Made by a program: the position numbers and the translations under genes. From Zhongshania antarctica (lineage in GTDB: Bacteria > Pseudomonadota > Gammaproteobacteria > Pseudomonadales > Spongiibacteraceae): 64,000 nucleotides of DNA. The stretch covers positions 186,001-250,000 of the forward strand of contig NZ_JACHHW010000001.1 of assembly GCF_014202945.1 (NCBI RefSeq). Reading direction: 5' to 3'. The notes under the pieces were generated by a model, which had not been told where the DNA came from, searched no databases, and saw only the letters and a program-made list of their open reading frames with translations. The first letter of the stretch is position 1. Each line of letters starts with the position of its first letter. Shown in pieces: positions 6,851-20,514 of this stretch.

Positions 6851-9460
6851 CTACAAGGTTTTTAAATACTCAATAATGGCTCGACGTTCAGCGTCAGTAA
6901 GCACATCACTAAACGCGTGACCGCCATTGCCCTGGCTAAACATAGTGGTGTTATAAACTTTACGATTCTCGATATCCTGATTGCTCAAGGTCGGCGGATT
7001 GGCGATATTCCAACCTAACAATAGGTTTCCGTAAAATTCGGATAGGAAAAAAGCAGACTCCAAACCCGTAGGGTTACATTGAATCGACGACGATACTCCC
7101 GCCGCGGCGCAGTCTAACTTCTCATACTTCCAGCCCAAACGCTCGCGATCATAGGCGCGATTAAAATCGCTATCAAAGCCCATCACCACTGCGCCTGCTT
7201 GGTCTGCGCGGGCAGGTTTCGAGACTCGCTTCCAAACAGTTGGCCGCTTACCTGAATCCAACAAACTCCAGACATCTGGCACCGCGCCATTATGAAGATA
7301 GGGTGCTGTCGCCCAAACGCCATACAACGGCGGTGCAGCGTAACCCGACGGACGCTCTTGTCCCTTAGCATCAATTTGCATGCCCGGCATATTTTGCACC
7401 CGACAATCGTCAATCCCTTCTCGGTTTGCGGTTTCTGGGTAAGCCACCGAGGTATTCGAGTTCGCCTCATTCGTACCCTCATTATAACTTTCCAAGCGCA
7501 CACGGTCGGTATCAATTACTTCAATAGGTACAACATAACTCGCGATCCCGACTAACGCCGGGTTGGCAAGAAACTCAGGCTTGTTCACATAGCGTGGGGA
7601 ATAGGCACCGTGGCAACTTGCACAGCTGCCATTGCCGCCTAGCGGTTTGGCAATAAGGTTATTTAAATTAACCGCCCACAGGTCTTTGGCGTGGAATAAC
7701 ACCGCGCCCTGTTCTGCAAGATCAGTGTTAATAACACTGGGATAAACCGGCGCACGCCGGGACATAATATAGTGGTCACCGTCCTGCACGTGGGCGCTAA
7801 TCCAGCCGGGATTCTGCTCGGGCACGCCGTATTTATTGGTCAGCAAGGGTGAGAACAAGGCAAAGTCCACGCGCACGGCATCACCGGGGAACATGGCATC
7901 AACAAATTTTACCGGGCGGTGACCAACGTTCCACCAAGCCGGCGTATCGCCCGTGCCGGTTGTGCCATTGTTCATCACCGCTGCAAATTGCTGGGGCGTT
8001 GTCACCCCGGTCAAGGCGGTAATATTAGAGAACTGAGCATTATTTGTGCCGCGTACCCGCCCGGCCAAACCGAGGCGATCGATTGCAACGCCACTGGGCG
8101 AGCCGAAGGCCGCAAAATCTCGGGAACTCACACTGGCATCTAACATGCCGCCACCGCCGCCGACCGCAAATTTATCGCCGATTTGTACGCCGTGGCAGCC
8201 CTGACAATTACTGTTAATCTCACCACTGTAGCTGCCGTCAGGAAAGCGCGTTTGAATCATACCGAAGGGCAAGGCGCCACTACCGCCGTTAGTGGCATTG
8301 GGATCTTCACCAGGCAGCGGGTAGGGATACTTGGGGTCCGGCGCACCAAAGCCATAGCGCTCGGCGACTAGCTCATCTAAGTTATCTGGGCGACCTGGCA
8401 AGCCCCATACCACCCATAAATTATTGTACTGATCGGCACTCAGCGCGGCATTGCCGTGAGGGTAGTCACCAGCAAAGGTGGTGGCTGGGCGAATGATTTC
8501 ACCGTCTGGGTAAGTTTTATAATTGCCGCTGGCATCCAGCATAGGGGCGTCACCCATAATCACCGCGCCGCGCTCAAAACTCGCCTTAAATTCGCCACAG
8601 GTTTTTGGATGGGGGTATTCATTTACCAACGCCGGATCTATATGACAGTCCTTCCAAAAGGCATTAAAATAAACTGCACGGCCGTCATTATATCCAGGCT
8701 TAACCAAGGCTCGCGGATCAACGGGTAAAACCGCCGTCGCCACCCAGTTTTTAGCCTCGCAGAAATCTACCCAGGCATGACCACCGCGGGAGCTGCCTAG
8801 CAGCGGCTGCTCAGTGCCGGTATCCACCGAAACCAAGCTACACTTTTGCGGGTCCGCCCAACATTGCAATAAACTACGCATATTGGCGTATTCCGCTGTG
8901 CTGACAGCCCACTGCTTGCCACCTACATGGGGATCGGTCTGGGCGCGACTGTCACTGGCTTTGAATAAAATAGGACTTTGTTCAACGCCGCCGCCAAGTC
9001 CATTCCAGTCGCTGTGCAATTTGAGCAATTCATCCGCTAAGCTGGCGTTCTTAATCAGCATAAAGCCACGGCCATCACCGGCACCATCAGAGTCAGCAAC
9101 GCCGCCAGCGACATGGCAGGTACTGCATATCTTTAACGAGCTGTGGACATTGGCTTTATAAAATTCGAATATCGGGTCCTTACCGCCACTTCCTGAACCG
9201 CTGCCATTGCCGTTGCCATCTGCAATATCCGGGGTATCGCAAGCATCGCCTATGCCGTCGTCGTCACTATCCGCATTTTGGCCGTCGGCATTGGCAACAA
9301 AGGGGCAATTGTCGTCTAAATCAACAATACCGTCCCCATCACTGTCGGTCAGGGGGTTGCCGACAATATCAACCACATCGCCGCTGGAACTGCCGCCACA
9401 GCCCACCATTAGGCTTGCGCTAAATAGTATTACCCAAAGAACACGCCGATACCTAGTCAT
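6851..9460 (-). CDS. Three-haem c-type lipoprotein, RoxA/MauG/peroxidase-like, with TSP3 repeats
   Basis: Predicted exported lipoprotein of about 869 residues. After the signal sequence and lipobox (LMVGC) come two acidic calcium-binding thrombospondin type-3-like repeats (SDGDGIVDLDDNCP, then DSDDDGIGDACD). A Gly-rich linker and three haem sites follow: CSTCH (about residue 112 from this start), CQGCH (419) and CASCH (613). The last two haems are 194 residues apart, close to the spacing I recall for rubber oxygenase RoxA. The C-terminal PPLYGVWATAPYLHNGAVP is typical of the bacterial cytochrome c peroxidase/MauG/RoxA group. ATG 9460 gives a compact signal peptide; an ATG at 9493 adds 11 residues. 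It could be a dioxygenase of hydrophobic polymers, a peroxidase or an electron carrier. The extra N-terminal haem is unusual. Confidence 0.82.
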   Translation of the reverse strand: MTRYRRVLWVILFSASLMVGCGGSSSGDVVDIVGNPLTDSDGDGIVDLDDNCPFVANADGQNADSDDDGIGDACDTPDIADGNGNGSGSGSGGKDPIFEFYKANVHSSLKICSTCHVAGGVADSDGAGDGRGFMLIKNASLADELLKLHSDWNGLGGGVEQSPILFKASDSRAQTDPHVGGKQWAVSTAEYANMRSLLQCWADPQKCSLVSVDTGTEQPLLGSSRGGHAWVDFCEAKNWVATAVLPVDPRALVKPGYNDGRAVYFNAFWKDCHIDPALVNEYPHPKTCGEFKASFERGAVIMGDAPMLDASGNYKTYPDGEIIRPATTFAGDYPHGNAALSADQYNNLWVVWGLPGRPDNLDELVAERYGFGAPDPKYPYPLPGEDPNATNGGSGALPFGMIQTRFPDGSYSGEINSNCQGCHGVQIGDKFAVGGGGGMLDASVSSRDFAAFGSPSGVAIDRLGLAGRVRGTNNAQFSNITALTGVTTPQQFAAVMNNGTTGTGDTPAWWNVGHRPVKFVDAMFPGDAVRVDFALFSPLLTNKYGVPEQNPGWISAHVQDGDHYIMSRRAPVYPSVINTDLAEQGAVLFHAKDLWAVNLNNLIAKPLGGNGSCASCHGAYSPRYVNKPEFLANPALVGIASYVVPIEVIDTDRVRLESYNEGTNEANSNTSVAYPETANREGIDDCRVQNMPGMQIDAKGQERPSGYAAPPLYGVWATAPYLHNGAVPDVWSLLDSGKRPTVWKRVSKPARADQAGAVVMGFDSDFNRAYDRERLGWKYEKLDCAAAGVSSSIQCNPTGLESAFFLSEFYGNLLLGWNIANPPTLSNQDIENRKVYNTTMFSQGNGGHAFSDVLTDAERRAIIEYLKTL

Positions 9461-9637: not shown

Positions 9638-10555
9638 TCAGGACTGCCATGGCCCTAGATCCCCGCCGGTTTGTCCGTTCGCCTGCACCCAGCAGTGAGG
9701 CAAGCCGAGTTCGTCTAGCCATGCTGGCGCTGCGATCACGCCCTTCAGCAGACCCACCGTGGCGGCCGTTCCGGCCAATAAACACAGCGGCGCCACGACA
9801 CTGAGTGATCGAAAGGTATTTTCCACCGGCCAGCCGCTACGGGGGTCAAGAATATGGCTGTAGCGCTTACCGGCTATCACCATAAAACGCTCATAATCGC
9901 CACTACTCGCCAAACCCCCGCTCTTTAACGGCACCACCAATTTCGCTTGGGTCGGCTGCTGAGGATCACGTATACCAATTTGCCAAGCACTACCGTCTGG
10001 GTGGGGCCCGAGCACCCGAATATCACCCCCTAAATCAACTAGGCCATGAGCAATACCCTGTTCGGCACAAACTCGTGCTGCGGCATCAACCGCATACTCT
10101 TTCGCAAATCCGCCAAAATCCAATTCCATACCAACCTGACTTAGCCGGACTTTGCCCGCGGTCAATTCAACCTTAGGCCAACCCAGCACCGCAACTAAGT
10201 TTGCCACCTCACGCTCGCTAGGGAGTTGTCCTGATTTAAAATTCCACGCCCGTCGCAACACCCCTGAACTTATATCAAATAAACCATCACTTTGCTGATA
10301 GGCGCTATCGGCGTACTGCAATAACGCGCTGGTCTCACTATCAATGGTGACGGCATCGCCGCCCGCCGCGCGATTTATTGCGCTCAACACACTGGTGTGA
10401 CGATACCGAGAATATTTTTGTTCTATGCGATCAACTTCGGCTATCGCGGCCTCAGCGGCGCGATCAGCGAAGCCTTGCGAAGTTGCATACAAGCGCAATT
10501 CACAGGGGCTCGCCATAGCGGTAAAGGGAAATAAAAAAAGGTGTAATTCTGCCAC
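9638..10555 (-). CDS. apbE: ApbE-family FAD:protein FMN transferase
   Basis: Transfers FMN from FAD to a Ser/Thr of a target protein. The 305-residue protein has the ApbE core FTAMASPCELRL at residues 12-23, a central MELDFGGFAKEYAVD and DLGGDIRVLG, and the C-terminal GLASSGDYERF and RYSHILDPRSGWPV. No signal peptide or lipobox precedes the core, whereas many ApbE proteins are periplasmic lipoproteins. It starts 1 bp after the DUF3570 stop as the last gene of a four-gene operon. Its substrate is presumably encoded in that operon or acts with it. Confidence 0.9.
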   Translation of the reverse strand: MAELHLFLFPFTAMASPCELRLYATSQGFADRAAEAAIAEVDRIEQKYSRYRHTSVLSAINRAAGGDAVTIDSETSALLQYADSAYQQSDGLFDISSGVLRRAWNFKSGQLPSEREVANLVAVLGWPKVELTAGKVRLSQVGMELDFGGFAKEYAVDAAARVCAEQGIAHGLVDLGGDIRVLGPHPDGSAWQIGIRDPQQPTQAKLVVPLKSGGLASSGDYERFMVIAGKRYSHILDPRSGWPVENTFRSLSVVAPLCLLAGTAATVGLLKGVIAAPAWLDELGLPHCWVQANGQTGGDLGPWQS

Positions 10556-10556
10556 G

Positions 10557-11768
10557 CTATAAATGTAGTTTCAGGCCAAGGGATAAAATATCAAACTCGA
10601 CTAAACCTGGGTTTTCCACCCCGACGTCGTCCAGCGCCAGGCTCGCCGCGGCGCGATAACTTTCCCATTCCACGTTTGTAGAAAACTCACCCCAGTTACG
10701 CTCCAAGCGAAGTCGAAAACTTAGAGCGCCGTAGGGTGACAACCGGTAGTCGCTAGAAGCGTAGCCATCGCTGCGCGCATTGTAAAAAAACGGTCCATAA
10801 AAATACGCCTGAGATTGGCTGTAATAACGCAGCGAAGGCGTCAACTGCCAGTTGTCGCCCAAGTTCTGATACCAAGCTAAATCAACGGTATGGGAGCTGA
10901 TGTCCCAGTCATCGTCAAAAAACCGGTAATCCACATGCAGAGCAGCTCTCACCGCGGGTAGGTAGTGACGCATACGCACGTTCAATACCAATTGCTGCCG
11001 TTCATTGGGTCGCGCATCAGCAACGGTATTGCTCAGATCCGCCCGCCACACTTTCTTATAGGGGTCAGATAAATAGCCGTCATTCGTCACCATACTGAGG
11101 CTGCCCTGCACTACGGTATTGGCATTTAAGACCTGCGCCACGGCAACAAACGCCGTTGTGCTGCTGCGGCTAGCGCTATCGATACGGTCTGGCATCTCAG
11201 GGTCAGTTGGCTCAATCTCGTCGTCGCTAAAACCAAGGCCAGCCGTCAACGTCAATTCCCGCGCGGGAATCTCTATACTACCCTCTACGCCCATATTCAC
11301 TGCTTGGTAATCATTTTCAGTTGAGTAACCCAACAAAACCTTGGCAGCATGCTGGGAAGAAAAATAATGGCCAAGGCTAGCCTGTATATCTTTGCGCTCT
11401 TCTTCAATACTCGCCCCGCTCATAACCTGCACGGGGCCATTACCGCTAGTGCCCGGCATAATAAACCACGGCGAGGCACCACTCATGGTTTCGTAACTAA
11501 AGTCTACCGCTAGGTCCGAGGCGCGACCAAGAGGCGATATAAAGCGGAGCTGATGGGTGTCAATCTCGTAACGCGAAGCAGAGCCAGCGGCTAATTTGCT
11601 GCGTTCAATATCCGCTTCGCGGTAGGCGGAAGCTTTGTAGCCTAGTTCAGCCTCGGCAATCGGCGCCGCGGCCTGAGCCGTGCTCACGATACCCGGAATC
11701 GCTAGGGCTGCTGCGCTAAGCGCCATGAATGCGCTAGCCCCTTGGCCGCGCGCATTTTTTTGCTTCAT
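10557..11768 (-). CDS. DUF3570 outer-membrane beta-barrel protein
   Basis: Exported protein of 403 residues with a signal peptide ending near AQA (about residue 33). The mature part alternates hydrophobic and polar residues, is rich in Tyr, Trp and Arg, and ends in a hydrophobic beta strand (GLKLHL), all consistent with an outer-membrane barrel. I recognise it as DUF3570 from its length and its neighbours DUF4266, TlpA and ApbE. The function of the family is not established. It could be a channel or an anchor for the partner lipoprotein. Confidence 0.8.
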   Translation of the reverse strand: MKQKNARGQGASAFMALSAAALAIPGIVSTAQAAAPIAEAELGYKASAYREADIERSKLAAGSASRYEIDTHQLRFISPLGRASDLAVDFSYETMSGASPWFIMPGTSGNGPVQVMSGASIEEERKDIQASLGHYFSSQHAAKVLLGYSTENDYQAVNMGVEGSIEIPARELTLTAGLGFSDDEIEPTDPEMPDRIDSASRSSTTAFVAVAQVLNANTVVQGSLSMVTNDGYLSDPYKKVWRADLSNTVADARPNERQQLVLNVRMRHYLPAVRAALHVDYRFFDDDWDISSHTVDLAWYQNLGDNWQLTPSLRYYSQSQAYFYGPFFYNARSDGYASSDYRLSPYGALSFRLRLERNWGEFSTNVEWESYRAAASLALDDVGVENPGLVEFDILSLGLKLHL

Positions 11769-11801
11769 AAATATGGCCTCATAAGATTCACGCTAAGACG
11801 T

Positions 11802-12014
11802 TTAATTGCAGCCACAGCCACCACCACCGGCGCTGGCAGCCCCGCTGCTAGCCTCTTTACTGAAGTAGACATGATTGCGCTGGCTGGCGCTCAAGCTATC
11901 AGGATCCCAGGCCATTTCGGGCCGGGCCAAATAACCACGATCCCACGCTTGCAAGGGCTCTACTGCACAGGCCGAGAGCAATAGCGCTGTTACAAAAAGG
12001 AATAGCAATTTCAT
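11802..12014 (-). CDS. DUF4266 small lipoprotein with C-terminal Gly-Cys tail
   Basis: Seventy-residue lipoprotein. A signal peptide with lipobox LLSAC gives the lipidated Cys16. The mature part has the motif AWDRGYLARPEMAW and ends in GGGGCGCN (Cys67 and Cys69). The start codon overlaps the TlpA stop (ATGA at 12011-12014), so translation is probably coupled. The free CGC tail beside a thioredoxin suggests redox chemistry or metal binding. A Ser-rich SSGAASAG segment just before the tail could be considered as an ApbE target, but it does not match the usual SGA[ST] pattern exactly. The function is unknown. Confidence 0.8.
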   Translation of the reverse strand: MKLLFLFVTALLLSACAVEPLQAWDRGYLARPEMAWDPDSLSASQRNHVYFSKEASSGAASAGGGGCGCN

Positions 12015-12514
12015 GATTTTTCCTCGGCCAACAAGGCCAGCACAATTTCTCTTAGGCGAGCCCCATCACCGGGCCGAAAGCCCTCGTGAACATGGCGGAC
12101 AACACCCTGGCGATCAATGAGATACGCACTCGGCATGCCCTTTAGCCCGAAAAGCTTCGGCAATTCCTGCTCGGCATCATAAATTAAGGGGTAGCTGACA
12201 GGCCGAGATTGCAAAAACCGCTTTGCATCGCGGATATCGGCGTCCACATTCACCGCCAATACCATAAAACCTTGGGAATTGAACTCTTGATACAGGCCTT
12301 CTAAGGTCGGCAAGGACGCGCGACAAGGGCCGCACCAAGAGGCCCAAAAATCCAAATACACCAATTGACCGTGAAAATCAGCCAGCTGAATTTTGTGTAC
12401 AGCGCCCAACGCCGGCGCAGAAAAATTCGGCGCTTTTTCACCGACCTGCAAAGCCAGTGCCGATTGCAAAAAAAGTCCCACAAAAGCCAGTGCCAAGGCG
12501 ACGCTACGCAGCAT
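12011..12514 (-). CDS. TlpA-like periplasmic thioredoxin
   Basis: Periplasmic thiol-disulfide oxidoreductase of 167 residues. The signal peptide ends around SALA (residue 21). The thioredoxin motif WCGPC is at residues 60-64, and the cis-Pro region (GLKGMPSAYLID) is near residue 135. It is the first gene of the operon leading to DUF4266, DUF3570 and apbE. A reducing role toward the two C-terminal cysteines of the DUF4266 protein, or toward a haem or flavin partner, is inferred from this order. Confidence 0.9.
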   Translation of the reverse strand: MLRSVALALAFVGLFLQSALALQVGEKAPNFSAPALGAVHKIQLADFHGQLVYLDFWASWCGPCRASLPTLEGLYQEFNSQGFMVLAVNVDADIRDAKRFLQSRPVSYPLIYDAEQELPKLFGLKGMPSAYLIDRQGVVRHVHEGFRPGDGARLREIVLALLAEEKS

Positions 12515-12658: not shown

Positions 12659-14806
12659 CTAGGCAAACAACTCCCCTTTTTCGGCCTTATCGAGCAGCAC
12701 TTGCGGTGGCTCAAAGCGCTCACCGTATTTCTCGGCGAGCACGGCAAGGCGAGTAGCGAATTTTTTCAGGCCGTAGGTATTAATGAACTGCAGGACACCT
12801 CCGGTATGGGGCGGAAAGCCAATCCCCATGATCGAGCCAATATTGGCGTCGGCCACGTTATTCATTACACCTTCTTGATAGCAACGCAGCGATTCCACAA
12901 TCTGGCGAAACAAGAGCCGATCTTTAATATCATCGCTGGGCAGGCTAACAGCCTTGTTATAGTGCCAATTGTAAACTTCCGGCCAGAGGAATTTTTCACC
13001 GTCGGTAGGATACTCATAATAGCCGCCGCCGTGAAAACGACCTGCACGACCAAACTCGTCAATCATTCTTTTGGCCAAGCGGTAAGACGCCGTATCTACG
13101 GCATAATTATCACCTATACGCTTATCTAATTCGCGATTGGTTTCTATGGCCTTCACCGCTAGCTGCTGGCTAACTTCGTCCTGCACTGCCAATGGGCCAA
13201 CTGGCATACCAATGGCTTTACCTAGGTTTTCGATCACCACCGGATCAACACCTTCTTCAAACAGTAAAGCCCCCTCATCAATATAGGTAGCGAATACTCG
13301 AGAGGTAAAGAAGCCGCGAGAATCATTAACAACAATTGGGGTTTTCTTGATTTGCTGGCTGTAGTCAAAGGCCCGCGCCAAGGTTTCGTCGGAGGTTTTA
13401 TCGCCGACAATAATTTCCACCAGCGGCATTTTATCGACGGGAGAAAAGAAGTGAATGCCGATAAAATTTTCTGGTTTTATTGAAGGCTCGGCAAGCAAGG
13501 TGATTGGCAAGGTTGATGTGTTGGAGCCCCAAACACCATTCTCGGCCAACATGGGCTCTAATTCCTGAGTGATCTTATGTTTGAGATCAACATTTTCAAA
13601 CACCGCCTCAATAATTAGATCACAGCCGCGCAATGCATCGGCTTGTGCAGACGCAGTAATTAAATTTAACACAGCCAGCTTTTGCTCTTCGCTCATGCGG
13701 CCCTTGACCACGCGTTTGCTAAGTAATTTATCGGTGTAGGCCTTGCCTTTATCTGCAGCGTCCTGGCTTATATCCTTTAATACCACCTCAATCCCGGCCA
13801 TTGCCGAAACATAGGCGATGCCCTGCCCCATCATTCCCGCGCCTAAAATACCAACTTTTTTAATCTTAGACTTAGGCACCGCTTTCGGCCGGCTGCCACC
13901 GCCATTGACCTGATTCATTTGCAGAAAGAAACTCATCAAGTTTTTGGCACTGGGCTCGGTTAGCAAACTTATAAACGTGCGCGTCTCGACCAATTGCGCA
14001 GTATCAAAATCCAAACGCAGGGTACTGGCGATTACATCCAAAATCTTAATCGGCGCCGGCACAAGGCCCCGACTTTTCTGGAAAATCATGGGGTTCGCAC
14101 CCTGAATCATTTGCGAAATAGCCGGTTTACGCAGGTCACCACCAGGGATTTTAAAGCCCTTAATATCCCAAGGGTTCTGCGCTTCGGGGTTCGCCTTAAT
14201 CCAAAGCTTAGCCTTCGCCATCATGTCGTCTACGTCGCTGGCCAATTCATCGACAAAGCCATTACCCAGAGCTTTTTGGGCATTAAAACGAGTTCCCTCT
14301 AACAAGGGCATAATCGCTCGTTCAACACCAAACTTACTCACCAAACGCACCACACCGCCGCCGCCGGGCAACAGGCCCAAGCTTACTTCGGGCAGGCCGA
14401 GCTGCACCGTTTTACTGTCCAATGCAACGCGATAGTGACAGGCTAAACAAATTTCATAACCGCCGCCAAGCGCAGCGCCATTAATTGCCGCGACCACCGG
14501 TTTGCCAAGTTTTTCAAGTCGGCGCAGTTGTGATTTAATACTGAGATTGGTTTCGAACATGATACGTTCGTCATCGCCCGCCTCAATAGTCAACATACTT
14601 TTAATATCGCCACCGGCAAAAAAAGTGCTTTTGGCGGAGCTAATGATCACCCCAGCAATACTGTCGCGCTCAGCCTCAAGGCGATCGACGGTCGCACCCA
14701 TTAAGTTGAGGTATTCGTCGTTCATCGCATTTACCGGGCCACTCATGTCCATAGTGACGGTTACGATATTGTCGCTGTCTTTTTGATAATCAAATGTGCC
14801 TGTCAT
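12659..14806 (-). CDS. Beta-oxidation multifunctional enzyme (enoyl-CoA hydratase/3-hydroxyacyl-CoA dehydrogenase)
   Basis: FadB/FadJ-family enzyme of about 715 residues that hydrates enoyl-CoA and oxidises the 3-hydroxyacyl-CoA with NAD. The N-terminal crotonase domain has INGAALGGGYEICLACHYR and the oxyanion/catalytic stretch GLPEVSLGLLPGGGG. The central Rossmann motif is GAGMMGQGIAYVSAM, and HFFSPVDKMPLVEII holds the catalytic His. The frame opens at 14899, but ATG 14806 is preceded by AGGATGA and gives the usual N-terminus. It follows the thiolase by 99 bp on the same strand, which makes a fadIJ-like pair. Confidence 0.93.
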   Translation of the reverse strand: MTGTFDYQKDSDNIVTVTMDMSGPVNAMNDEYLNLMGATVDRLEAERDSIAGVIISSAKSTFFAGGDIKSMLTIEAGDDERIMFETNLSIKSQLRRLEKLGKPVVAAINGAALGGGYEICLACHYRVALDSKTVQLGLPEVSLGLLPGGGGVVRLVSKFGVERAIMPLLEGTRFNAQKALGNGFVDELASDVDDMMAKAKLWIKANPEAQNPWDIKGFKIPGGDLRKPAISQMIQGANPMIFQKSRGLVPAPIKILDVIASTLRLDFDTAQLVETRTFISLLTEPSAKNLMSFFLQMNQVNGGGSRPKAVPKSKIKKVGILGAGMMGQGIAYVSAMAGIEVVLKDISQDAADKGKAYTDKLLSKRVVKGRMSEEQKLAVLNLITASAQADALRGCDLIIEAVFENVDLKHKITQELEPMLAENGVWGSNTSTLPITLLAEPSIKPENFIGIHFFSPVDKMPLVEIIVGDKTSDETLARAFDYSQQIKKTPIVVNDSRGFFTSRVFATYIDEGALLFEEGVDPVVIENLGKAIGMPVGPLAVQDEVSQQLAVKAIETNRELDKRIGDNYAVDTASYRLAKRMIDEFGRAGRFHGGGYYEYPTDGEKFLWPEVYNWHYNKAVSLPSDDIKDRLLFRQIVESLRCYQEGVMNNVADANIGSIMGIGFPPHTGGVLQFINTYGLKKFATRLAVLAEKYGERFEPPQVLLDKAEKGELFA

Positions 14807-14905
14807 TGCTATTTCATCCTGTCTAATTTGCTCAGGGCTTAAACCGCGAATTCGAGATACCGGCCTATGGCCACGTACATCTCTTGTCTTTTGCAGCAAG
14901 CCGAA

Positions 14906-16114
14906 TTAAAGGCGTTCAATAATTGTTGCGATGCCCATACCGCCGCCCACACACAGAGTAACCAAGCCAAAGCGCTTATCGCGGCGCTCCAATTCATCGA
15001 GAACCGTGCCCACCAGCATGCCACCAGTCGCACCCAGTGGGTGACCCATTGCAATCGAACCGCCATTTACATTTATTTTTTCCCAAGGAATATTGGTGTC
15101 TTGTTGAAAGCGCAGCGCGACTGAGGCAAAGGCCTCATTAATCTCAACCAAATCGATATCTTCGATTTTCATTCCCGCTTTCTTCAACACCTTCCATGTC
15201 GCAGGTGCCGGGCCGGTGAGCATGATTGTAGGTTCTGTTCCGGTCACGGCTGTGGCCACGATACGACCACGGGCTTTAAGCCCTATTTTTTGGCCTGCGG
15301 CAGCGCTGCCTATAAGTACCGCCGACGCACCGTCGACAATACCCGAGGAGTTACCCGCATGATGGACATGATTTACTTTAGCCACTTGGGGGTATTTGCT
15401 TATAGCGATATCATCAAAACCCATGCCGCCCATCATGGTAAAAGACGGCCGCAAACTGGCTAGGCTTTCGATAGTCGTACCCGGTTTTATAAAATCATCA
15501 CGCTGTAAAATCGTCATGCCATTAACATCTTTTACCGGTAAAACTGAGCGGTCAAAATAACCTGCATCCCGCGCTGCAGCCGCCTTAGCTTGAGAGCCAA
15601 CTGCAAATTCGTCGAGGGTAGTTCGACTGAAACCGGCTAGCGTCGCGATGAGATCCGCGCCAATGCCTTGCGGCACAAATGCCGTGTCGGTGGCGATTTG
15701 CGGATCTTCAGCCCAAGCACCGCCGCTGCTGCCCATCGCCACGCGGGACATACATTCAACACCACCCGCTACGACTAACTCTTCCCAGCCCGAGGCTATT
15801 TTCATCGCCGCCAAATTAACCGCCTCAAGACCCGATGCACAAAAGCGATCTAGCTGCACACCAGCGACAGACTCGGCCCACCCGGCCTTGAGAACCGCTG
15901 TTTTAGCAACACACGCGCCCTGCTCACCCACGGGGGTAACGCACCCAATCACCACGTCATCAACTAAACTGGTATCAATATCATGGCGATCACGTAAACC
16001 ATTTAACAGGCCTGCCAATAAATCCACCGGTTTTACCTGACTTAAGGGCGACCCCATTTTCCCCTTCGCCCTTGGTGTGCGCACGGCGTCGTATATATAA
16101 GCTGTGTTACTCAT
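14906..16114 (-). CDS. Acetyl-CoA C-acyltransferase (thiolase)
   Basis: Cleaves 3-ketoacyl-CoA with CoA, the last step of beta-oxidation. The 402-residue protein has the nucleophile region [11 protein letters not shown] near residue 90, [11 protein letters not shown] and [15 protein letters not shown] with catalytic histidines, and the C-terminal cysteine in [11 protein letters not shown]. The open frame extends to 16360, but residues before [14 protein letters not shown] have no thiolase character, so ATG 16114 is the start. GGGA lies about 8 nt upstream. It is probably cotranscribed with the downstream multifunctional enzyme. Confidence 0.94.
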
Positions 16115-16470
16115 GTTAGCGTCCCATTTATGTAGCGATTTTTGACATGGTGTAAAAGTACATAAGATTGCCCCCCTCTCAGTGTAATGACAATGATATG
16201 CCATGACAGCAGATAGACATTTAGTTACAAAGTTTTCCGTTTTAAACCACGCCCGCGAACTCAATGGCACACAGAGCAATTTGACGGCAGCTGGGGAACA
16301 AGCTAAATATGGCCGACTAAGCCGAGAAAAACCGCGGACTTTATTGTCTTCAGCCGCCACTAATTCCTCCGCCGCAGCTCAAACGTGTCAGCTAGGGCTG
16401 GGCATAGCTCACGTTGCGATTTAAAGTAGATCGTAATAAAAGCAATGGCGCTTTACGGAGACAGACAGGC
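16115..16470. other. Divergent promoter region, thiolase/ligase
   Basis: 356 bp separate the minus-strand thiolase from the plus-strand ligase. Promoters for both must be here. I see no clear palindromic FadR- or PsrA-type operator and no strong sigma-70 pair. Short open frames in the region have no protein-like character. ACGGAG at 16455-16460 is the likely ribosome site for the ligase. Confidence 0.4.
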
Positions 16471-18114: not shown

Positions 18115-20514
18115 TTAAAATTCCCCGCGCAGCGTAATGCCGTACATCCGGGGTGCGGCAACATAGGCATTGTGGTCATCCCGCGAGCCAGAAACCCCGC
18201 CCTGTAGCGGGGTGTTAAAATGCTGCGTAACATAGCGTTCGTCGCTGCAGTTTTGGCACCAGATATTCACCGAAATTCCACTGCTATTTGAAGCGAGCCC
18301 CAAGGTCGCACTGTATTCAATCTGAGCATCGCGTTTTTCATTGTTGGCAGGGTTAGTAAACTGCTCACCCGAGTAACTGCTGGCAATTCGACCCCGCAGC
18401 GACAGGGTGTCACTTATCGGTTGATCCATAGTCAACGACACATTGCCGACAATTTCTGGGGCTTGGGCGAATTCGCGACCAGACAGAATGCCAAGGGATG
18501 CAATATCCAGTGCCTCAGATTCACCAAAGCGGGCCTCTGGCAGCCAGGTCATATCAATAGCTAACGTAAATGCGTCGCTGAGAACAAATTGATTCTCCAC
18601 TTCAAGGCCGTACACTTCGGCGTCGGGAGAATTCAAAATACCAAAGGCGAGGCCGTCAAAAGTGGCGACTTGCAGATCGGTAAGTTCATTATAAAATATG
18701 GCAAAGTTACTACGCGCGCGGCCATCAAAGTAATCGGTTTTTAAACCTAGCTCATAACCGTCGACAAATTCCGAGGCATAACGAGGATCATTGGGTTCTT
18801 GGTCACCCAAGGCCGCCGAGCTTGGCTCTTCGGCATTGTCACCCACTTTACCCGCCGCCTGGTTGTCGAGATTTACCCCGCCAGATTTATAGCCGCGACT
18901 AAAGGACAAATAACTCATGGTGTCGTCGTTAAACTGATATTGCAGGGCTATTTGGCCACTTATCGCGGAGTCAGTATAACTTTCATTGTACTCAGGACCC
19001 GGTTGCGCGCCCAGTACTCGGAAAGGCTCCAAGGCACTATCGCGGAAGAAGCGGCGATACATCAAGCCGGTTTTTTCATCTTGGGAATAGCGTACACCCG
19101 CGGTCAAACTCAACTGGTCGCTAATATCCAGACTTAAATGCATAAATGCCGCGTAGGATTCACCGGTGCCAGCCATGTGAATATCACTAATCAATCCTGT
19201 TGGGGCATCTAGGACATTAATCAACTCGTAAATTGTCCAAGTCGTTTCGTTTGGCGCGCCGGCCTCAGTCGATGGCACGTAGACGTTTAGGTACTCCTGA
19301 GCTTGCTCACCCCAATATAATTGATGATCAGCCTCAATAATTTCATCGGCATAATAAACACCCAATACATAGTTAGCGCCTACGAAGGGACCAAGATCAG
19401 TAAACTCCCCCGACAGTGTAAATTCCTGAGAAAAAATATCGGTCGACAAGGTTTCGTTGATCCCGAGAATACTCGCGCCACTAAAGTCGGCGTCCATACC
19501 ACTCTGGGCGATATTCCAGCTCCGATAGGCGGTCACCGAGCCAATAGTGGCGACGTCGCTAATAAACCACTGGGTGTTTAGGACAACACCTTGGTCTTCA
19601 ACACTTTGCGCTGGGGCCTCACTAATAACCTGCTGGTAATCCTCGAATTTAGCCGAGGGCGTGCGCTTGCCGTTACGCCGTGTTAATTCATCGATGTAGG
19701 CCTGCATGCCGCCGTCAACATCATCCATTTGCCCGTAACAGCAGTTGGCATCTTCCTGCGACCAGTCGGCAATTAAACGCATACTGAGGTTTTCGGTCAC
19801 TTCAAAAAGGAGCTGCGCCTTCAATGCACGAGGCGCGCTGTCATTGTAATTACCACCATTGGGATCTTCGATAAAGCCGTCTTTCCTGCCCCACAAGCCC
19901 GCCACCCGCAATGCCGTCTTATCGCTAAGCGGAGTATTAAAGCCGCCCCGCACCAGCTGCTTGCCGTAATTGCCAAGGGTGAGTTCGACATCACCTTCAC
20001 CTCCGTCCAAAGACGGCGCCTTACTATTAATAATCAGCGCACCAGCCGAGGTGTTTTTACCAAATAAGGTTCCCTGGGGTCCGCGCAGTATTTGCAGGCT
20101 TTCAATATCTAACCAGTTTTGCATCGCTTGACCGGCACGAGTGCGGTATACGCCATCAAAGAACACGCCTACCGCGCCCTCAAACGAGCGATTATTACCC
20201 ACTGTGCCAATGCCCCGGATAAAAATATTGGCGCTATTGGCGGGACTGTTTGTCACGTCAAATTTAATACTGGGCGAGATCGCACTGATATTACCTATAC
20301 TATCGACTTGAGCATAAGCCATGTCTTCCGCTGTGGCGGCGGTCACCGCCACGGGCACGTCTTGCATACTCTCGCTGCGTCGCTGGGCGGTCACCACTAT
20401 TTCTTCGAGCTGCCGACTCTGCTTCTGCTGAGCGATAAGCTCGCTTGGCACCATTGTGCTACTTACCGCTAATACTGCTGAGTACAAGGGAAGGAGTTTA
20501 TTTTTATGAAGCAT
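18115..20514 (-). CDS. TonB-dependent outer-membrane receptor
   Basis: Energised outer-membrane importer of 799 residues. The signal peptide (cut near residue 28) is followed by the TonB box EEIVVTAQRR. The plug domain contains IFIRGIGTVGNNRSFEGAVG and ILRGPQGTLFGKNTSAGAL. The large barrel ends with the terminal aromatic strand GITLRGEF. The type resembles receptors often found beside catabolic genes for hydrophobic or complex carbon in marine gammaproteobacteria. It converges on the acyl-CoA ligase. The ligand cannot be deduced. Confidence 0.92.
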   Translation of the reverse strand: MLHKNKLLPLYSAVLAVSSTMVPSELIAQQKQSRQLEEIVVTAQRRSESMQDVPVAVTAATAEDMAYAQVDSIGNISAISPSIKFDVTNSPANSANIFIRGIGTVGNNRSFEGAVGVFFDGVYRTRAGQAMQNWLDIESLQILRGPQGTLFGKNTSAGALIINSKAPSLDGGEGDVELTLGNYGKQLVRGGFNTPLSDKTALRVAGLWGRKDGFIEDPNGGNYNDSAPRALKAQLLFEVTENLSMRLIADWSQEDANCCYGQMDDVDGGMQAYIDELTRRNGKRTPSAKFEDYQQVISEAPAQSVEDQGVVLNTQWFISDVATIGSVTAYRSWNIAQSGMDADFSGASILGINETLSTDIFSQEFTLSGEFTDLGPFVGANYVLGVYYADEIIEADHQLYWGEQAQEYLNVYVPSTEAGAPNETTWTIYELINVLDAPTGLISDIHMAGTGESYAAFMHLSLDISDQLSLTAGVRYSQDEKTGLMYRRFFRDSALEPFRVLGAQPGPEYNESYTDSAISGQIALQYQFNDDTMSYLSFSRGYKSGGVNLDNQAAGKVGDNAEEPSSAALGDQEPNDPRYASEFVDGYELGLKTDYFDGRARSNFAIFYNELTDLQVATFDGLAFGILNSPDAEVYGLEVENQFVLSDAFTLAIDMTWLPEARFGESEALDIASLGILSGREFAQAPEIVGNVSLTMDQPISDTLSLRGRIASSYSGEQFTNPANNEKRDAQIEYSATLGLASNSSGISVNIWCQNCSDERYVTQHFNTPLQGGVSGSRDDHNAYVAAPRMYGITLRGEF

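Follow-up and report, generated by a model that had tools for sequence, protein, structure and literature searches.

With which protein does the flavin-carrying outer-membrane barrel DUF3570 work? The question is raised by a locus of the gammaproteobacterium Zhongshania antarctica (RefSeq assembly GCF_014202945.1, genome of 3.85 Mb), analysed here as a window of 64,000 nucleotides (contig NZ_JACHHW010000001.1, positions 186,001 to 250,000). Four genes on its minus strand encode, in this order, a TlpA/ResA-like thioredoxin-fold protein, a DUF4266 lipoprotein, a DUF3570 barrel, and an ApbE transferase of flavin mononucleotide (FMN); TlpA and DUF4266 overlap by 4 bp, DUF4266 and DUF3570 are separated by 33 bp, and DUF3570 and ApbE by 1 bp (Table 1). 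A gene for a RoxC-type haem protein lies 144 bp downstream of this module on the same strand. Known clusters combine ApbE and DUF3570 with a thioredoxin-like protein and a CXC-tailed DUF4266, 316 of them lacking DsbD, and the Chlorobium luteolum DUF3570 is flavinylated by its own ApbE at two [ST]GA[ST] motifs, the role of DUF3570 being stated there as uncertain (Méheust et al. 2021; PMC8238504). RoxC is described as the largest cluster of the rubber oxygenase (Rox) sequences, 243 of about 457, with its function stated as unknown (Prakash et al. 2024; PMC10837239). Both the module and RoxC have thus been published before; what is new is the association between them.

A sequence-only reading of the window had taken the four genes for a possible uncharacterised periplasmic flavin/thiol module. 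Pfam matches to all four families and the junctions given above agree with its gene identities, coordinates, and tight packing, and its remark that DUF3570 and DUF4266 occur near ApbE was correct (PMC8238504). For the flavin substrate, "uncharacterised" was an overstatement, as a 2021 study had already demonstrated that a DUF3570 is flavinylated at two [ST]GA[ST] motifs (PMC8238504). The two SGAS motifs of the barrel, the RoxC-type gene, and the lack of room for a signal peptide in ApbE had escaped that reading. The module itself is borne out by co-occurrence across loci: among 101 distinct DUF3570 loci (open reading frames of at least 300 aa, repeated cores removed, some loci cut by contig ends), DUF4266 is found within 1.5 kb in 95, a TlpA-like gene within 2.5 kb in 83, and ApbE within 5 kb in 59, so the grouping is not due to chance.

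Association of two-motif DUF3570 proteins with the RoxC haem domain

The RoxC-type protein has a lipobox (MVGC, with cleavage placed by pattern before GGSSSG), an N-terminal haem motif CSTCH at residue 123, a TSP3-like linker, and a core with the haem motifs CQGCH (430) and CASCH (624) and the MauG motif PYLHNGAVP containing H734. Its scores against the NCBIfam models, 766.4 bits for RoxB and 726.6 bits for RoxC, are both below the curated cut-off of 900 bits, and we therefore call it RoxC-type after its architecture. Over the core (residues 353-880) the sole PDB relative is the rubber oxygenase RoxA (4b2n). In our alignment the rubber-oxygenase residues F317 and W302 are replaced by L546 and V531, and a function as a true rubber oxygenase was rejected on these grounds; RoxB retains the phenylalanine (F309) and has V294 at the W302 position (PMC10837239). 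The lipoprotein pattern, the extra N-terminal haem, the dihaem core, and the loss of F317 and W302 are all shared with the described RoxCs, most of which are lipoprotein-like and many of which have a third haem (PMC10837239). In our set, the lipoprotein pattern occurs in 47 of 58 Rox proteins with the N-terminal haem domain versus 12 of 46 others. Across a 13-row alignment of this domain the CxxCH motif, a second histidine (H189 in the window), a tryptophan, and a cysteine are invariant, and Pfam gives nothing over it in two proteins that hold it (L075, L152).

The DUF3570 of the window belongs to a subtype, here called E-type, in which the first motif resembles ETMSGASP and the second is SGA[ST]; both motifs are strict in 47 of 50 E-type rows, the exceptions being L073 (second motif TAAT), L150, and L151. 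The least kin-biased test of its association with RoxC is a draw of one genome per family across the class. The haem domain occurs in three of 143 genomes, and all three have an E-type DUF3570 nearby, versus two of 140 as typed (p = 2e-5, or 3e-4 if all of the six unread DUF3570 genomes held the subtype). The three are the window's genome and those with L075 and L073 (one strict motif); the two others with an E-type protein hold L071 and L074. The unread genomes are six of 37 with DUF3570 (G048, G056, G076, G077, G093, and G136), together with some extra copies, and a fourth genome (G141) has a weak haem-domain match (3e-9) and no DUF3570 listed.

The same association is seen when genomes are scanned with a Rox alignment. 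Of 175 Rox places, the 80 closest to the query were used, a selection that limits the counts that follow, and these gave 73 named loci. A first, iterated Rox profile also matched Laminin-G haem lipoproteins, and a strict profile was used afterwards. A DUF3570 gene lies inside the fetched flank in 14 of 38 loci with the haem domain versus one of 35 without it, and this single case is of another type (L217, DSLTGASH). The 73 loci were reduced to 50 loci in 49 genomes (20 further loci belong to genomes already included, and three were left out). A two-motif DUF3570 is present in 24 of 26 of these genomes with the haem domain (E < 1e-30) versus one of 23 without (Fisher p = 1.2e-10, uncorrected for kinship); the 24 were read from sequence, while most of the 23 genomes were typed by the pattern of profile matches only. 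The one exception (G566) has its DUF3570 beside another haem protein (L244), and a further genome (G576) has a weaker domain match (4e-12). In 18 of the 24 genomes the two genes share a contig and are no more than 25 kb apart, versus 0.96 expected. Distances between DUF3570s and between their nearest haem-domain Rox proteins are correlated (Mantel r = 0.73, n = 25, none of 5000 permutations as high), as they would also be from shared descent of the genomes. By contrast, none of 26 DUF3570s of another group, the D-type, has a haem-domain Rox gene in the surrounding 9 kb, as far as the loci reach.

Closer to the window, Rox genes recur near E-type DUF3570s in its genus and family. Within the genus, a two-motif DUF3570 is found in nine of ten genomes with a Rox match above 500 bits versus none of eight without (Fisher p = 4e-4). 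The sample of relatives comprised 38 genomes and that of the order 390. In one family of the order sample (f170), the genes RoxC-TlpA-DUF4266-DUF3570-ApbE are contiguous in all six fetched regions, which were chosen for the closeness of their matches and are the family's six listed Rox matches of about 600 bits; its Rox matches above 1000 bits, of two-haem length, are not beside a listed DUF3570. Most DUF3570-linked Rox proteins have the extra N-terminal CxxCH domain. Two-haem Rox proteins also occur near DUF3570 in L075, L100, L102, L105, L147, and L169, in four of these beside a haem-domain Rox.

The association of RoxC with two-motif DUF3570s is strong. Several observations limit its reach and weigh against the relay proposed below. 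The sets of genomes (genus and relatives, order sample, 49 Rox genomes) overlap. In 24 of the 38 named loci with a haem-domain Rox, the fetched flank contains no DUF3570, and in six of the 24 genomes the two genes are on different contigs. RoxC occurs without DUF3570 in Zhongshania aquimaris (G538/G150, with ApbE present) and in a Nevskia metagenome-assembled genome (G571), and a 498-bit Rox of f170 (G386:C16) has no listed DUF3570 nearby. Many genomes have several RoxCs and one or two two-motif DUF3570s.

Flavin sites, barrel topology, and place of flavinylation

The sequence-only reading had offered three candidates for the flavinylated partner: the barrel, the lipoprotein, or a distant protein. 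Two SGAS motifs in the window's DUF3570, of the [ST]GA[ST] form, make the barrel the expected target; at least two such motifs arise in 47 of 20000 shuffles of this protein. The predicted acceptor serines are S99 and S120. The lipoprotein was set aside, as the window's DUF4266 has no [ST]GA[ST] motif. As that reading had said, there is no FMN_bind gene inside the module. Four FMN_bind places exist in the genome, one of them within 3 kb of another, longer ApbE (C4:261529); a distant target for the window's ApbE was set aside on this account.

An AlphaFold2 model of DUF3570 (51 input sequences; mean predicted local distance difference test, pLDDT, 89.2) has 16 strands of at least 11 residues. 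On one side of the barrel the gaps between strands are 16, 23, 2, 13, 24, 4, 27, and 16 residues long; on the opposite side, which also carries both termini, they are 3, 4, 4, 2, 4, 2, and 3. The two SGAS motifs lie at either end of the 23-residue gap. Among ten invariant residues, six lie within the 24- and 27-residue gaps and four in gaps of the same side or within five residues of them. In outer-membrane barrels the side with long loops usually faces outside and the side with the termini inside, and by this rule the long-gap side would be the outer one; both flavin sites are thus predicted to lie on the outer side. All 50 Foldseek matches shown are outer-membrane proteins, barrels of many kinds including FadL-type channels, and a PDB sequence search with the DUF3570 alignment gave a single match (E = 0.76).

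The DUF4266 lipoprotein has the lipobox LLLSAC with Cys16 and a cysteine pair, Cys67/Cys69, in its tail. All 91 relatives read have a CGC tail, with one further residue after it in 90 and two in the other, and C16, L29, M34, E54, G66, C67, G68, and C69 are invariant in a 26-row alignment. TlpA has, by eye, an N-terminal leader and a WCGPC motif; its match to the ResA model (1.2e-30) is under that model's cut-off. Proteins with a DsbD_TM domain are encoded on another contig of the genome (C8), and none in the module. Promoter- and terminator-like sites were not clearly above shuffles (5 versus 6.1 and 10 versus 7.9, respectively).

The core of the window's ApbE begins at about residue 13, and its open frame of 310 codons leaves no room for a signal peptide (signal peptides and lipoproteins were called from sequence patterns and Kyte-Doolittle hydropathy). 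Among 36 ApbE rows of the E-type, 31 contain the AM[AG] core motif; between 9 and 51 residues lie ahead of it, and none of these 31 N-termini has a 12-residue stretch above 1.2; in the ten D-type ApbEs with the motif, 11 to 33 residues precede it, with a hydropathy maximum of 1.1. Three ApbEs of the hydrazine-synthase-type loci described below have, by eye, a leader-like stretch. As the E-type and D-type ApbEs show no signal peptide, their DUF3570s are probably flavinylated in the cytosol, ahead of export. The C. luteolum barrel was flavinylated though found mostly in the pellet of the Escherichia coli lysate (PMC8238504), which fits modification of the unfolded chain. With an ApbE of this kind and both flavin sites predicted on the outer side, the earlier label "periplasmic" becomes doubtful.

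Table 1. Features of the window discussed in the text (positions of the 64,000-nucleotide stretch)
Feature	Coordinates	Strand	Evidence
RoxC-type three-haem lipoprotein, 880 aa	6851..9493	-	NCBIfam RoxB 2.4e-230, RoxC 3.7e-218; PDB RoxA 4b2n
N-terminal domain with one haem (residues 91-249 of the RoxC-type protein), proposed electron entry	8747..9223	-	domain common to relatives
ApbE FMN transferase, 305 aa, GTG start, predicted cytosolic	9638..10555	-	Pfam 1e-75 from residue 14
DUF3570 outer-membrane barrel, 403 aa, predicted covalent FMN carrier	10557..11768	-	Pfam 1.1e-62
Predicted flavinylation motif 2, SGAS, residues 117-120 (QVMSGASIEE)	11409..11420	-	[ST]GA[ST] motif
Predicted flavinylation motif 1, SGAS, residues 96-99 (ETMSGASPWF)	11472..11483	-	[ST]GA[ST] as in C. 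luteolum DUF3570 (PMC8238504)
DUF4266 lipoprotein, 70 aa, C-terminal tail GGGGCGCN	11802..12014	-	Pfam 5.7e-21
TlpA/ResA-like thioredoxin-fold protein, 167 aa	12011..12514	-	Pfam AhpC-TSA 5.7e-26, Redoxin 2e-24
Enoyl-CoA hydratase/3-hydroxyacyl-CoA dehydrogenase (beta-oxidation neighbour)	12659..14899	-	Pfam
Thiolase (beta-oxidation neighbour)	14906..16360	-	Pfam
TonB-dependent receptor, possible product uptake	18115..20514	-	Pfam

DUF3570 tree and other haem partners

A tree of the 101 DUF3570 sequences has three main bodies. In the E-type body, RoxC is the partner in 25 rows by label, planctomycete-cytochrome-type or DUF1501 proteins in eight (Pfam-checked in L074 and L107), and no partner is labelled in 16. 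A second body of 24 rows is without a haem partner, except for one two-haem Rox at 8 kb (L147). The third, divergent body is accompanied by dihaem proteins resembling the hydrazine synthase alpha subunit, assigned by profile in 17 rows, with a check of the Pfam domain in L086 and L072. The RoxC label changes seven times on the tree, and at least three of these changes are forced by well-supported branches; it was therefore gained or lost more than once. Same-strand proteins with at least two CxxCH motifs were counted up to 4.5 kb away: 26 of 43 E-type loci have one, as do 11 of 15 hydrazine-synthase-type loci, one of five others, and none of 22 D-type loci, with a background of 9 of 38 from the same loci (26/43 versus 0/22, p = 5e-7; loci with at least 4.5 kb on each side).

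Members of the divergent body (L050-L052, L061, L072, L076, L077, L079-L087, and L089) lie downstream of the hydrazine-synthase-alpha-like genes and mostly have D-x-x-[ST]-S-A-S instead of SGAS, and 14 of the 17 have no ApbE within 5 kb; L086 also contains two small outer-membrane barrels and TPR proteins. The E-type modules of L074, L107, and L157 follow a haem protein of the planctomycete-cytochrome type and a DUF1501 protein (the Tat-signal match in L074 is weak, and L157 was assigned by an in-house profile only). A tandem duplicate of the TlpA-DUF4266-DUF3570 unit, of the type without a haem partner, is found in L090 (G157).

The RoxC haem domain occurs in more than one protein context, a sign of domain swapping. 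It is a stand-alone gene in L075 (7e-40), adjoining a two-haem Rox, and weaker copies occur in different DUF3570-adjoining proteins of L152 (1.4e-4) and L072 (9e-5), which score well only once added to the profile. The separate gene in L075 (10656-11387) is lipoprotein-like, has a second CxxCH, and stands immediately before DUF4266-DUF3570-ApbE. A Rox relative of 1808 aa (L098:11430-16856) contains two copies of the domain, four CxxCH motifs, and thrombospondin-3 repeats. The window's genome has a second three-haem RoxC-type gene (L148, C1:285537-287513) about 89 kb from the module and a single DUF3570 genome-wide. In Z. aquimaris (L140 of G150), RoxC and ApbE lie about 10 kb apart, and DUF3570, DUF4266, and TlpA were not found in the 19.5-kb stretch.

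A possible electron relay and its alternatives

On the basis of the findings above (gene set, motifs, predicted barrel, and association with RoxC), we propose that a thiol-to-flavin electron relay crosses the outer membrane and reduces RoxC; we infer the electron-transfer steps and their direction, and give the proposal a chance just short of even. ApbE, lacking a signal peptide, would act in the cytosol and put FMN on both SGAS sites while DUF3570 still awaits export, its location being read from the sequence and the site chemistry taken from the C. luteolum protein. The exported protein would fold, by the model and the topology rules, to a 16-strand outer-membrane barrel with both sites outward. 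Electrons would pass from DsbD, encoded elsewhere in the genome, to TlpA, to the CGC cysteines in the flexible tail of DUF4266, and on to the barrel flavins, and from these to the N-terminal haem of lipoprotein RoxC and its MauG-like dihaem core. Reduced RoxC might then activate O2 or peroxide and attack an unsaturated lipid or isoprenoid, a substrate suggested by the adjoining beta-oxidation genes and TonB receptors, through which the products may enter.

Such a feed of electrons through TlpA, the CGC tail, the FMN barrel, and the extra haem would explain much of what is reported of RoxC, and the exchange of the haem domain among DUF3570-adjoining proteins also counts for it. Two RoxCs, a three-haem one from Fontimonas and one without the third haem, were all-ferric and did not cleave rubber when expressed and partially purified (PMC10837239), as would fit a missing reductant. 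RoxB, however, is active although it too is isolated in the all-ferric state, and of the two inactive RoxCs one lacks the third haem (PMC10837239); the ferric state alone is therefore no argument for a missing reductant. A similar entry point has been proposed for YhjA, a tri-haem peroxidase of E. coli, in which the N-terminal extra haem would pass electrons to a dihaem core (PMC10301912); its N-terminal haem ligand is methionine, whereas in the RoxC-type protein the second histidine is the candidate. Further points weigh against the relay. Electrons would have to cross a barrel in which any chain of centres is hypothetical; the outer-side placement of the flavins depends on a model and general rules; the AlphaFold model of DUF4266 is poor (pLDDT 69); and in the two-motif clade 16 of 51 rows are without a labelled haem partner in range.

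The same evidence can be read without redox coupling: DUF3570 may be the uptake barrel of a catabolic pathway in which RoxC acts on the same substrate. FadL-type channels are among its structural matches, and TonB receptors and beta-oxidation genes adjoin the module. These matches are generic (query template-modelling scores of about 0.33-0.54 in the rows shown), two flavinylation motifs, ApbE, TlpA, and a CGC lipoprotein indicate redox chemistry, and the association tracks the haem domain of RoxC, not Rox in general; we regard a purely shared substrate as unlikely. The chain might also run the other way, RoxC oxidising a substrate outside the cell and handing electrons to the FMN barrel, from which they would move inward to the CGC tail and TlpA. 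Each step could in principle be reversed, RoxCs are ferric at rest when purified (PMC10837239), and the opposite direction is allowed in principle for flavinylated systems (PMC8238504). The oxygenase-like core of the RoxC-type protein and the proposal that DsbD feeds electrons into such clusters (PMC8238504) argue for outward flow. TlpA/ResA-like proteins, moreover, are usually reductants, and the reversed chain seems to us rather unlikely.

ResA is a thioredoxin of cytochrome c maturation, and the resemblance of TlpA to it raises another explanation, namely that TlpA and the CGC lipoprotein hold the CxxCH cysteines of RoxC reduced for haem attachment, with the flavin barrel as part of the thiol system. 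That c-type haem proteins partner more than one DUF3570 group agrees with this. The D-type loci speak against it, none of the 22 having a same-strand neighbour with at least two CxxCH motifs though most carry TlpA and DUF4266, and haem attachment needs no outer-membrane barrel; we find a maturation role improbable. Iron reduction or uptake, a role proposed for certain DUF3570 clusters, would make RoxC a bystander; the VIT1 iron transporter reported in 25 DUF3570 clusters (PMC8238504) and the window's TonB receptor of unknown substrate could be cited for it. We consider it very improbable in view of the strong association with RoxC and of the annotated window neighbours, which include no further transport gene.

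If the outward relay to RoxC is correct, it could be one instance of a more general arrangement, which we advance tentatively and with considerable doubt. The barrel would be a haem-free outer-membrane electron conduit, flavinylated in the cytosol, with two surface FMNs charged from the periplasm by the CGC arm, and would serve as a common outlet for several unrelated surface haem enzymes (RoxC, the planctomycete-cytochrome type, perhaps those resembling hydrazine synthase alpha). On this view RoxC is an oxygenase or peroxidase that depends on a reductase, and it would have seemed inactive in vitro only for want of its reductant.

The window's module resembles the published clusters in its four families, the two [ST]GA[ST] motifs, the CXC tail of DUF4266, and the absence of a nearby DsbD, and differs in its thioredoxin-like protein, which matches AhpC-TSA/Redoxin where the paper names PF13899 (PMC8238504). 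The account of DUF3570 consulted there gives no Rox or other haem enzyme partner and no barrel topology (PMC8238504), while the window's subgroup is tied to RoxC and has an ApbE without a visible signal peptide. The main text of PMC10837239 does not contain "thioredoxin" or "outer membrane", and its account of RoxC, as consulted, proposes no redox partner. In the open-licence PMC literature, PMC8238504 was the sole paper retrieved for DUF4266 or DUF3570, and no paper joining rubber oxygenases or RoxC with flavinylation was found by title or start of abstract; the words co-occur within some papers, for instance PMC9070631, on a Nocardia genome, with one "ApbE".

A further comparison is with the MtrCAB conduit, in which an outer-membrane barrel with redox centres is linked to a haem lipoprotein on the outer surface. 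Foldseek match 19 of the DUF3570 model is chain 6r2q_B of the Mtr complex; the PDB search with the DUF3570 alignment found no sequence relation. In place of the haem chain of MtrCAB, the system proposed here would use flavin and thiols. If DUF3570 and RoxC are partners, each answers the question posed by the other and both become directly testable, and if the proposed relay is true, it would be an outer-membrane electron route built from flavins and thiols, not from a chain of haems.

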